A stretch of DNA of 47,614 nucleotides from Clostridia bacterium. GTDB taxonomy: Bacteria; Bacillota; Clostridia; Lachnospirales; Lachnospiraceae. Both the position numbers and the translations under genes were made by a program. The notes beneath the pieces were generated by a model, which did not search any database, was not told where the DNA came from, and saw only the letters and a program-made list of their open reading frames with translations. The stretch covers positions 1-47,614 of the forward strand of contig JAJQEA010000206.1 in the NCBI GenBank assembly GCA_021201905.1, in the 5' to 3' direction. Below, in pieces: positions 31,213-34,195 of the stretch (its first letter is position 1; every line of letters starts with the position of its first letter).

Positions 31213-31707
31213 TTATTGATTGCGTTTACCGGACCTTAAGTCATCCAGAAGCTGCCGTATTTTTTGGCGGTCCAGATTTCCGTATACCGTGTCCTTTACC
31301 TTGATGACAGGCCCTATGTCGCAGGCCCCCACACAGGGGATATAGTGATAGGCAAAGAAGCCGTCCTCTGTGGTTTCACCTATACCCACACCCAGCTCCT
31401 CCTTCAGAATCTGAGCGATTTCCTCGGATCGGGAGAAATGGCATGGGGTGCTGTTGCATACCTTCAGCACGTATCTGGCCTTTGGTTCTGTCTTTAACAT
31501 GGCATAAAATGTTATAATGTCATATACCCGTGTGGGATTCATACCCACTTCCTCTGCCACCAATGCAGCGGTTTCCTCATCAATGTAGTTGTAGCCTGAG
31601 GCGTTTTGCAGCTCATAGAGGATAGCCAGAAGGTGTTCCTTGTCCCCTCCGTTGTCCCGGATGATAGCCCTCTTTTCCTCGGCGGTCAGTTGGCTGGTGA
31701 TTTCCAT
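31213..31707 (-). CDS. nuoE: NuoE-like 2Fe-2S subunit
   Basis: 164 residues, thioredoxin-like ferredoxin of complex-I type. The four ligands are in CNSTPC and, about 35 residues later, CVGAC. The N-terminal helical part (VAEEVGMNPTRVYDIITFYAMLKTEP) is typical. It heads the operon nuoE-nuoF-fdhA-fdhD. ATG at 31707 has AAGGAG upstream. Confidence 0.94.
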   Translation of the reverse strand: MEITSQLTAEEKRAIIRDNGGDKEHLLAILYELQNASGYNYIDEETAALVAEEVGMNPTRVYDIITFYAMLKTEPKARYVLKVCNSTPCHFSRSEEIAQILKEELGVGIGETTEDGFFAYHYIPCVGACDIGPVIKVKDTVYGNLDRQKIRQLLDDLRSGKRNQ

Positions 31708-31759
31708 GCTTTATTCTCCTTATGTCTGTTTTCTGAAATGATGTGCATCCATAAAGACT

Positions 31760-31788
31760 AACCTAACAAATATGGGCAAAATAGTCAA
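31760..31788 (-). promoter_or_regulatory. Predicted promoter of the formate dehydrogenase operon
   Basis: Minus strand TTGACT (31783-31788) and TAGGTT (31760-31765), spacer 17; the -10 is imperfect, which leaves room for an activator. Confidence 0.5.
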
Positions 31789-31873
31789 TAAAAGTTAAAT
31801 TAATAACGCGGAATTTGTTGAAACTGCGAGAGCGGCCCACGACATAAACCGGCGTATTTCCTGGACCATGCTG

Positions 31874-31900
31874 TAAACTTTAGCCGCAACCATACGATAA
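31874..31900 (+). promoter_or_regulatory. Sigma-28/sigma-D-like promoter before the coiled-coil gene
   Basis: TAAACTTT (31874-31881), then 11 bases, then TACGATAA (31893-31900). The known flagellar/motility sigma consensus is TAAAGTTT-N11-GCCGATAA, so 13 of 16 positions and the spacing agree. No good housekeeping promoter was found in the same gap. The 248-base gap 31708-31955 holds this and the nuoE promoter. Confidence 0.6.
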
Positions 31901-31955
31901 CATAGATAGAACCAAAAAAGATGCAAAAACCCTGAAACACCAGTGGGAGGTAAAA

Positions 31956-32813
31956 ATGAGAATAAATTTTAATTCGGCGCAGCCTAAGAACACCATCATC
32001 AATGCGGCAAGGGTAAATGCCTCCTTTGCAAAGAATAGTAGAAGAACCGGAAGCGCAGCCGGAAACGGGCGCAGTGACAGGGCCACTTTTTCGCCCCAGG
32101 GAAAGCTGATGAGCATGATAGAGAACCTGACAAAGCAGAAGCAGGCCATCATTGAAAGAAAAAATGAACTGGTTGAGAACACCTTAAAAAACGGCGGTAA
32201 GGTGGACGATATCAAGGATCAGCTCAAAAACTACGGAAAGCAGCTGGCGGACCTGGATAAACAGATAGCGGGCCTGTATGCACAGCAGGCAAAGGCGTGT
32301 GTGGAACCGGAGGACAGGAAAAAGAAAGACAGGACGGATCCGGATAAGACGGAGGAGCAGAGAGAGGTGGAGCGTTTAAGCAGCCTTGCCAATGTCTCGG
32401 ACGGTATCAGGAATGCTGAGAAGATATCCGCCGTAAAGGACCGGGTTGAGGGTGAGATGCATGTGAAGGAGGCAGAGGTCAGCCAGGGCGGTGTGCATGT
32501 GGATGCCCTGGTCAGCAAAGGCATGGGCAGCTCTGCCAAGGTAACGGATTTGATTGACAATGAGATGAGCTCGTTAAAACGAAAGGAAATAGAAATCGCA
32601 GCGCTGGGGGAACGGGCTTCAGCCCTTGGGGACAGCCAGGGAAAGAGCCTTAAGGACAGCATGGATGCACTGGAGGAGAACAGGGAGACGGATGACGAAA
32701 CGGTCAGAGAAGACAAGGCAGAAGAAAGCAGGACCGGTATCCGGGCAGAGGAAAGCCAGGATGCAAAAAACACAGGTTCCGTCAGGACAGACCCTGTCCG
32801 CGTCCAACCGTAA
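31956..32813 (+). CDS. Unknown hydrophilic coiled-coil protein
   Basis: I do not recognise a named family. It has 285 residues with no signal peptide or membrane helix. After a short Asn/Ala-rich start comes SDRATFSPQGKLMSMIENL, followed by a long, charged coiled coil (residues about 45-105) and a second helical region (KISAVKDRVEGEMHVKEAEV and SSLKRKEIEIAALGER). The tail is acidic and disordered. The D-x-x-x-F-S-x-x-G-K segment resembles short leader motifs seen in many Firmicute cytosolic and flagellar-related proteins. AGTGGGAGG precedes ATG at 31956. A flagellar-type promoter upstream suggests a motility or surface role, which is inference. The 3' end overlaps the convergent NSS gene by 32 bases. 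Confidence 0.8.
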   Translation: MRINFNSAQPKNTIINAARVNASFAKNSRRTGSAAGNGRSDRATFSPQGKLMSMIENLTKQKQAIIERKNELVENTLKNGGKVDDIKDQLKNYGKQLADLDKQIAGLYAQQAKACVEPEDRKKKDRTDPDKTEEQREVERLSSLANVSDGIRNAEKISAVKDRVEGEMHVKEAEVSQGGVHVDALVSKGMGSSAKVTDLIDNEMSSLKRKEIEIAALGERASALGDSQGKSLKDSMDALEENRETDDETVREDKAEESRTGIRAEESQDAKNTGSVRTDPVRVQP

Positions 32814-34170
32814 CATATAGTATGACCGCAATAACCGCCGGAGCCAGGAATTTTACCAGAAAGGCCCACAGGCGTTTCCAGGCCATGCTGTGGCCGGAGG
32901 CTTCAATTTCCTTTGAGGCATTGTCCGTCCCCCATACCCAACCCACGAAGAGGCAGAAGCACAGGGCCCCCAGAGGAATCATCAGATTGTCCGTGAATTT
33001 CTCCATGACAGCGTTCATGGGGAGGTATTGGACGCCATTGGTAAAATCAAACCACGGAAGCTTTATGTCCATGGCTCCCTGGGACAGGGAATAGCCCGCA
33101 CTTAATAATGACATGGGAACCACAAGAAACAGGGTGGCCTTCAGCCTGGGGAAGCCGAATTCTTCCGTGAGCCATGCGATGCAGCTCTCAAGGATGCTGA
33201 TGGCGCTGGTCAGGGCTGCCACGAACAGCAGCAGGAAGAAGGCAAACCCGAAGAACACGCCGCCGGGCAGCCGGCTGAACACCTCAAGAAGAGCCATGAA
33301 GGCAAAACCGCCTCCCATCCCCATTGCTTCGGGACCAGCTGTGATATAGACCACAGGCACGATGGCAAGTCCGGACAGGAGAGCCACAAGGCTGTCCAGA
33401 ATGCAGATACAGCCGGCGCTTTTTGCCAGGTTCTCTGTCCTGGGCACATAGGATCCATAGGTCACCATGATGCCCATTCCCACGCTGAGGGAGAAGAAGG
33501 CCTGGCCCAGGGCGGCCACCACGGTTCCGCCGTTGAATTTTGCGGGGTCCACGGCCAGCATATATTTAAGACCCTCGGCAGCCCCATCCAGGGTCATGGC
33601 ATAGATGACGATTCCGGTTAACAGCACGAACAGGCCGGGCATTAAAAATTTACTGACCCGTTCAATCCCTTCTGACACGCCCCGCACAACCACGTAGATA
33701 CACAGAAACAGGAAGGCAGCGCCCCATATAAGCGGTTCTCCGGGCCGCGATATGAAATCTGCAAAATAAGCGGAAAATCGGCTGCTGTCATTTCCAAAGG
33801 CACTGAAATCCGCTCCGGTAAGATACACCGCAATGTATTTCATCACCCATCCTCCCACCACACTGTAGTAGGACATGATTACAAACAAGGTCAGGACGCC
33901 GATGCCGCCCGCAAAGCTCCAGCGCGGGTTCAGCCGGCGAAAGGCGCCAACTACATTTTTCTGGGTGCTGCGCCCGATGGAAAGCTCTGCCAGCATGACA
34001 GGGAATCCTACGAACAGGACAATCAGGGCGTAACAGATTAGAAACGCTCCGCCTCCTCCGGCGGCCACCTTTCCCGGAAACTTCCATATATTACCCAATC
34101 CCACCGCACTTCCAGCGGCGGCCAGTATAAAACCTATGTTGCTGGCCCATTGACTTCTTTTATGTTCCAT
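32782..34170 (-). CDS. Neurotransmitter:sodium symporter (NSS/SNF) family transporter, copy 1
   Basis: Sodium-coupled amino-acid importer of 462 residues, LeuT fold, about eleven hydrophobic helices. The family signature is AAAGSAVGLGNIWKFPGKVAAGGGGAFL in helix 1, with the unwound Na+/substrate region. GQAFFSLSVGMGIMVTYGSYVP is the helix 6 hallmark. ATG at 34170 has GGAGGGG eight bases upstream; an in-frame TTG at 34176 is less convincing. A terminator-like stem lies in its leader. A second NSS gene lies 4.7 kb away; the two differ enough to suggest different substrates. Confidence 0.93.
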   Translation of the reverse strand: MEHKRSQWASNIGFILAAAGSAVGLGNIWKFPGKVAAGGGGAFLICYALIVLFVGFPVMLAELSIGRSTQKNVVGAFRRLNPRWSFAGGIGVLTLFVIMSYYSVVGGWVMKYIAVYLTGADFSAFGNDSSRFSAYFADFISRPGEPLIWGAAFLFLCIYVVVRGVSEGIERVSKFLMPGLFVLLTGIVIYAMTLDGAAEGLKYMLAVDPAKFNGGTVVAALGQAFFSLSVGMGIMVTYGSYVPRTENLAKSAGCICILDSLVALLSGLAIVPVVYITAGPEAMGMGGGFAFMALLEVFSRLPGGVFFGFAFFLLLFVAALTSAISILESCIAWLTEEFGFPRLKATLFLVVPMSLLSAGYSLSQGAMDIKLPWFDFTNGVQYLPMNAVMEKFTDNLMIPLGALCFCLFVGWVWGTDNASKEIEASGHSMAWKRLWAFLVKFLAPAVIAVILYVTVGRGQGLS

Positions 34171-34195
34171 TTTCAAAACCCCTCCGTTATATCCA

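Follow-up and report, generated by a model that had tools for sequence, protein, structure and literature searches.

What does a gene do when it carries a promoter of the flagellar type and its product falls under no catalogued protein family, and is such a promoter to be believed at all? These questions are raised by a locus in a 47,614-nucleotide stretch of DNA from a member of the Lachnospiraceae, the whole of which is referred to here as the window. A preliminary description had proposed a sigma-28 promoter before an unknown coiled-coil protein that could be an undescribed member of the motility regulon.

The window gene and its neighbours

The window gene (31956..32813, +) runs from an ATG at 31956 to a stop codon that ends at 32813, an open reading frame of 285 codons for a FlxA-related coiled-coil protein of 285 amino acids, the start of which is conserved among homologues elsewhere. 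A ribosome binding site, GGGAGG (31945..31950, +), is located 5 bases 5' of the ATG. Both neighbours lie outside the system considered here: a divergent gene for a NuoE-like subunit (31213..31707, -), identified by NCBIfam, and a convergent gene for a sodium-dependent transporter (32782..34176, -), identified by NCBIfam and its reading frame, which overlaps the final 32 bases of the window gene. The window gene is best explained as a single-gene transcription unit. Among named records, relatives of the window protein occur in Clostridium sp. 1001271st1 H5 and in a bin labelled Enterocloster bolteae.

A sigma-28-type promoter before the window gene

The E. coli-type consensus for sigma-28 promoters is TAAAGTTT-N11-GCCGATAA. 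The window site is composed of a -35 element, TAAACTTT (31874..31881, +), an 11-base spacer (31882..31892, +) and a -10 element, TACGATAA (31893..31900, +), the two elements starting 82 and 63 bases, respectively, 5' of the ATG. The match at 13 of 16 positions that had been reported for this site, with the exact spacing of N11 between the boxes, is borne out. For Butyrivibrio fibrisolvens the sigma-28 consensus has been given as TAAA (N16-17) MCGATAa, which serves as the reference for motile species of Clostridium cluster XIVa (PMC3720852), and the window site, read as TAAA-N16-ACGATAA with the -35 TAAA at 31874-31877, matches it completely. The promoters described for the SigD regulon of Clostridioides difficile, flgM included, have TAAA and CG 15-18 bases apart (PMC3865298), and the window promoter likewise pairs TAAA with CG. 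Based on the base composition of the window, TAAA-N16/17-MCGATAA is expected by chance about 7 times in the 5.85 Mb of the genome and, for any single gene, 0.0001 times within the 200 bp that precede it. As far as they can be judged from sequence, all the features of a sigma-28 promoter are present at the window site.

As in the preliminary description, no housekeeping promoter was detected: a scan of 31700-31970 turned up no sigma-70-type site. This is weak evidence, because shuffled sequences contain such sites only 0.8 times on average. A second TAAA-N18-CGATA occurs within the gene (32185-32211) and is most likely a chance occurrence. In the mechanism proposed here, RNA polymerase carrying the flagellar sigma factor (sigma-28, FliA/SigD) would transcribe the window gene from a start near 31907.

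The same motif elsewhere in the genome

It could be argued that the motif arose by chance, with the window gene transcribed from a housekeeping promoter that escaped detection. Scans of the genome by motif alone are on the side of this argument, as their counts fall below those of reversed controls. The loose pattern TAAA-N16..18-CGATA is found 90 times in the 5.85-Mb genome versus 134 times for its reversed control, and the extended pattern TAAASTTT-N11-KMCGATA, with at most one mismatch allowed, is found twice in the whole genome, both times exactly, versus 7 matches for its reversed control at equal tolerance. The scan by motif alone was therefore rejected as proof; the motif by itself fails to single out the window gene, and it is conservation across species that does so. 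Given the 7 control matches, what matters is the places of the two matches rather than their number. One precedes the window gene, and the sole other precedes the flgM operon, so that the proposed check, a search of the genome for the same motif at flagellar genes, led to a flagellar locus.

All 16 box bases are identical between the promoter of the window gene and that of flgM in the same genome, in the -35 as well as the -10 element. The flgM locus has the gene order flgM, a gene in the flgN position, flgK, flgL, fliW, csrA and fliD. NCBIfam supports FlgK, FlgL, FliW and flagellin, and Pfam supports FlgM, the flgM-like gene being over the Pfam cut-off and, at 38.3 bits, just below the NCBIfam cut-off of 40.75; the names flgN, csrA and fliD are given by place and resemblance only, and the gene in the flgN position has no NCBIfam match. 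The contig with flgM also bears a gene for a FliA/WhiG sigma factor (TIGR02479, 232 bits, cut-off 189.6). The putative flgM sites of three relatives, recognised by resemblance, consist of TAAAGTTT together with TACGATA, TTCGATA or TCCGATA.

Sigma-28 promoters have been assigned in silico to the flagellin genes of motile Lachnospiraceae (PMC3720852). The window genome has five matches to the flagellin model, one of which is FlgL. Its main flagellin gene (L022 17978, -) has the -10 box GTACGATAAG and a weak -35, TGAA at N18, and upstream of the other flagellin-type genes, on contigs C387 and C392, no site of the scanned strength was found. The weakness or absence of these promoters counts against a strict consensus in this genome. 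One flagellin-type match (G000:C392 6942-7352) has an internal TGA; the assembly has an estimated contamination of 8%.

Conservation of the promoter across the family

The strongest argument against a chance motif comes from homologues in other genomes. Proteins with 80% (genome G015), 61% (G008), 52% (G012), 38% (G040) and 24-27% (G096) identity to the window protein are encoded by genes in which TAAA-N17-CGAT lies 52-97 bp 5' of the start codon, in G096 ahead of each of three genes, and the spacers differ among them; the -35 element is kept in the closer homologues and TAAA-N17-CGATA in homologues. In G096:C77 (L030 8614-11082) the three copies lie in tandem, each with its own sigma-28 box. 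By eye, the neighbouring genes in G008, G012 and G096 are unlike those of the window, G015 has the downstream transporter and the next gene in common with it, and G040 has a similar-looking transporter two genes off; given the transporter likeness in G015 and G040, the neighbourhoods are not all unrelated.

The boxes were counted before 43 family ORFs without repeats, several of them from one genus and one a fragment without its true start, and before 180 other ORFs, each 220 codons or longer, from the same 79 sources, which comprise the window and 78 of the loci. All nine core bases are present before 17 of the 43 family ORFs versus 1 of the 180 others. With the spacing fixed at N17 the counts become 15/43 and 0/180 (Fisher p 1.9e-12, relatedness uncorrected), and with eight or nine core bases at N16-18 they are 26/43 and 11/180 (p 2.2e-14, likewise uncorrected for relatedness). 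The remaining 17 family ORFs have no box that reaches 8/9; many of these boxless genes are FlxA-type genes from the Lachnospiraceae sample, and some directly follow other genes. A sequence fitting TT(C/T)ACAAC(A/G)T(C/G)T, possibly a promoter of another type, was seen upstream of family genes in L043 and L049, which have no sigma-28 box at 8/9, and in L059, which has one with 8.

The persistence of the boxes and their exact spacing while the spacer changes, in some cases amid other neighbours, confirms at the sequence level that the promoter is real, and a chance motif coupled to a hidden housekeeping promoter is very improbable. Control of the window gene by sigma-28, and with it membership of the motility regulon, is put at a probability of about 0.9, the dependence on sigma-28 being strongly indicated by these comparisons.

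Predicted structure of the window protein

AlphaFold, run without an alignment, gave a model of the window protein with a mean pLDDT of 69 and a pTM of 0.30. The coiled coil that had been read from the letters reappears in this model as a helical hairpin: helices 47-78 and 83-114 are predicted to be antiparallel, with a mean pLDDT of 93-96 in blocks 51-110. This part (residues 47-114; 32094..32297, +) coincides with the position of the PF14282 domain in relatives, as judged from the model, the alignment and the match of relative G331. Further long helices are predicted at 133-177 and 193-259. A conserved motif common to FlxA-like proteins (residues 138-180; 32367..32495, +), S..(G/S)(I/L).(Q/N)AE..SVK.R.EGE..V.EAE, emerged from the profile-profile match described below and from the alignment.

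Model confidence is low for the tail from residue 261 and for most of residues 1-46 (31956..32093, +), where a short helix is placed at 17-26. In six close sequences this polar N-terminus has 7-10 K/R versus 1-2 D/E, and the model, its conservation and its charge suggest a basic segment that is probably unstructured. Conservation among the six is best at the start of the hairpin and its turn and least in the last 45 residues. A reading of the protein sequence revealed no Sec-type leader, in agreement with the earlier statement that an export signal is missing.

Some of these features invite comparison with FlgM, which in the window genome has the identical promoter boxes and with which the window protein has a D-x-x-x-x-S stretch near residue 41 in common. 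The window protein differs in its long coiled coil, and the genome has a separate FlgM-like gene. Neither the whole protein nor its N-terminus matches PF04316 (FlgM); the N-terminus of one relative gives E 0.028 with the FlgM model, which is below the cut-off, and an FlgM-like N-terminus was kept as a hint only.

A distant relationship with FlxA-like proteins

No Pfam or NCBIfam model matches the window protein over its cut-off, the best NCBIfam value being 0.077 and far below cut-off, and PHROGs gave no match at E up to 0.01. Pfam matches to Zeta_toxin (0.006) and Fibin (0.012) were under their cut-offs and were set aside as coiled-coil noise, as were the nine matches of a PDB sequence search with the wider alignment A2, which were to designed coiled coils and kinesins. 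Foldseek against the PDB produced 289 matches, none with E <0.001, and the 50 listed include varied helical hairpins.

The model of most interest is PF14282, the FlxA-like family, to which the window protein itself has no match at E up to 10. Since it fails the cut-off of this model, we do not assign it to PF14282. The connection runs through intermediates. Relative G331 matches PF14282 at 0.0074 over residues 48-132, below cut-off; of the 15 members of A2, four match it with E-values of 1 or less, down to 1.3e-21, and two of the seven members scanned singly are over the cut-off. A profile of the window-type group (A1, 8 rows) finds G143 (8e-8) and G293 (1e-6), both of which are over the PF14282 cut-off. 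When A1 was aligned by hhalign with a profile of FlxA-like proteins of the class (A3, 7 rows, with no row in common with A1), the two matched with a probability of 97 and an E of 1e-10 over residues 138-205, which lie outside the part covered by PF14282. Coiled coils are known to give false remote matches, and the helical nature of residues 138-205 may flatter this E-value, yet the match follows the recognisable motif given above. The window protein is a distant relative of the FlxA-like proteins (PF14282), linked to them through these intermediates and apparently regulated like them, and the best reading of the sequence comparisons places it in a divergent branch, so far uncatalogued, of a FlxA-like superfamily under sigma-28 control.

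The comparison extends to E. coli. FlxA of E. coli K-12 (b1566) is a protein of coiled-coil type that matches PF14282 at 2.3e-14 by hmmscan, and TAAAGATTTTTTTGTGCATGCCGATA, a TAAA-N17-CGATA promoter like that of the window, is present 50 bp before the start of its gene. When 14 control genomes, E. coli among them, were searched in six frames with PF14282, nothing matched, despite this hmmscan result. The flxA gene lies in the Qin prophage and is annotated as a PF14282 family protein; it is a FliA target for which FliA binding has been reported, and the function of its product is described as unknown (PMC4183435). With 110 amino acids FlxA is shorter than the window protein (285), which differs from it in having a second helical part, residues 133-259, and in the absence of a C-terminal tail. 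That tail, (I/V/T)(D/N)(I/V)x(L/I/V), ends 17 of 42 family ORFs versus 3 of 589 other ORFs, a count that is descriptive and no test, since the pattern is our own observation, was picked after the tails had been viewed and has not been published as a criterion. Examples are TIDIYV in E. coli FlxA (L118 3406-3738) and ITIDVVL in G096. The window protein ends in DPVRVQP and lacks the tail, and three G096 proteins of the window-type profile group have it. A shared extreme C-terminus of this kind reads like a recognition tail.

The preliminary description is supported, with two qualifications. Membership of the motility regulon is favoured by the conserved box, which most of the closer homologues carry, and by the flagellin found in 33 of 33 genomes (below). 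However, the gene does not belong to the flagellar core (below), and its product, although without a catalogued family in the libraries searched, is not wholly undescribed, being distantly related to a protein already listed as a FliA target. No description of the window gene in print was found in the open-licence literature, nor any paper there in which 'FlxA-like' appears together with 'motility'; elsewhere 'FlxA' is the name of a subunit of NADH dehydrogenase or the label of a sequencer (PMC4759654, PMC10920352, PMC3027613). In the main text of the C. difficile SigD study, the supplementary tables of which are outside this count, 'coiled', 'hypothetical' and 'unknown function' have 0 occurrences each (PMC3865298).

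Distribution among flagellated genomes

Another of the proposed checks was whether homologues occur only in flagellated relatives. The family was found in 6 of 98 genomes of relatives, 14 of 396 of the taxonomic family (12 new) and 17 of 393 of the class (15 new), and flagellin was present in 6/6, 12/12 and 17/17 of the matching genomes examined, that is, in all 33 distinct genomes in which the searches found the family. The background frequency of flagellin is 65 of 98 among the relatives and 151 of 393 in the class, and the hypergeometric probability is 5e-8 for the class sample (17 matches), 0.08 for the relatives and 0.09 for the genus. Within the genus the gene is present in 4 of the 10 flagellated genomes and in none of the 7 unflagellated ones, several of the latter being incomplete, and flagellin is found in 4/4 carriers versus 10/17 genomes overall; at p 0.09 this falls short of significance, as does the sample of relatives, and co-occurrence inside the genus was discarded as evidence in its own right, the claim being carried by the class sample. 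The class search used profile A2, which includes the two FlxA-type rows G143 and G293, and hence the result for the class bears on the superfamily more than on the window-type branch.

With PF14282 alone, 34 of 393 class genomes have a match at E <=0.001, 25 of them with flagellin; over the cut-off the figures are 19 and 17. The two genomes that are over the cut-off without flagellin, G657 and G800, have marginal matches in ORFs of 392 and 1178 amino acids.

Six of the ten flagellated genomes of the genus are without a copy, so the gene accompanies flagella without being required for them: it is a non-core flagellar gene. Such a patchy presence in the genus could also mean that a sigma-28-driven gene has no direct flagellar role and is simply useful to swimming cells, for example in interactions with surfaces, mucus or phages. 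We regard this as rather unlikely, as all 33 family-bearing genomes found are flagellated and FlxA-like genes are found near FliD_C-like genes.

Possible roles of the window protein

Following the export of FlgM and the release of sigma-28, the window gene would be made late in the assembly of the flagellum, a timing that follows from transcription by sigma-28 after FlgM has left the cell. Its product, a predicted helical-hairpin coiled coil with a basic N-terminus and no Sec-type leader, would most likely be a non-core flagellar accessory that works with the export machinery as a substrate or partner. That it works with this machinery is suggested only weakly.

One candidate role is that of a cytosolic chaperone or regulator of late flagellar assembly, comparable to FlgN or FliT without common ancestry. 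Long helices arranged in a predicted hairpin and the sigma-28 timing would suit such a protein, but the FlgN position in this genome is already occupied by a gene (itself without an NCBIfam match), no flagellar chaperone is among the 50 PDB matches listed and none of the 289 has E <0.001, and a helper of this kind would be missing from six of the ten flagellated genomes of the genus; we consider the role improbable, more so than one away from the flagellum.

A more plausible candidate is an export substrate, secreted or placed on the filament, with the unstructured N-terminus as its signal. The low-confidence segment of residues 1-46, with its 7-10 K/R versus 1-2 D/E, is consistent with this, and its D-x-x-x-x-S-x-x-G-K stretch recalls FlgM, to which the FlgM model responds in one relative (0.028, below cut-off) but not in the window protein's own N-terminus. 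Further evidence comes from E. coli, where FlxA, for which SignalP makes no prediction, is raised 3.4-fold in one of two exoproteomes (PMC6391000, Table 1). In the same exoproteome the table has hook-associated proteins 1 and 2 (4.8, 3.8), flagellin (3.7), FlgL (3.2), the anti-FliA factor (2.6) and FlgE (2.0), placing FlxA beside FlgK, FliD, flagellin and FlgL (PMC6391000). However, CheY and metabolic enzymes are listed there as well (PMC6391000), so that leakage and co-regulation can explain the rise, and FlxA is a distant relative of the window protein. With the exoproteome taken into account, the window protein as a flagellar export substrate is given nearly an even chance, somewhat more than without it. 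For E. coli FlxA itself, a rise in step with export substrates may already be evidence of its export.

A FliD_C gene lies near a FlxA-family gene in 3 of the 16 loci inspected, which is also in keeping with an export substrate; ten chosen neighbours among these loci were scanned for domains. The matches to FliD_C, the C-terminus of the flagellar cap, are over the cut-off and adjoin FlxA-like genes or are one ORF away from them (L104 7372-8619, -; L108 2986-3891, -; L109 10736-11278, +), as if cap-like and FlxA-like proteins were used together. Genes with DUF6033 over the cut-off were seen beside other FlxA-like genes (L105 10118-10897, +; L106 8395-9213, +); no paper on DUF6033 was found in the open-licence literature.

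A wider proposal would unite these proteins, from Clostridia to E. coli, in one ancient FlxA-like superfamily whose common features are a sigma-28 promoter, a helical hairpin and often a conserved hydrophobic C-terminal tail, and would view it as a late component or cargo of flagellar export that has been overlooked, with the window gene as a divergent branch unnamed in the family libraries searched. We put this forward as a possibility, somewhat short of an even chance.

Implications for motility regulons

For motile Lachnospiraceae, the window gene is a likely addition to the regulon, one whose promoter has been kept while the surrounding sequence changes, and a promoter of like kind is found with its distant relatives, as far as E. 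coli FlxA. The gene also offers a lead on E. coli FlxA. Features open to direct study are the promoter conserved in the family, the predicted hairpin, the genes of FliD type near by, the shared C-terminus and the listing of FlxA in an exoproteome.
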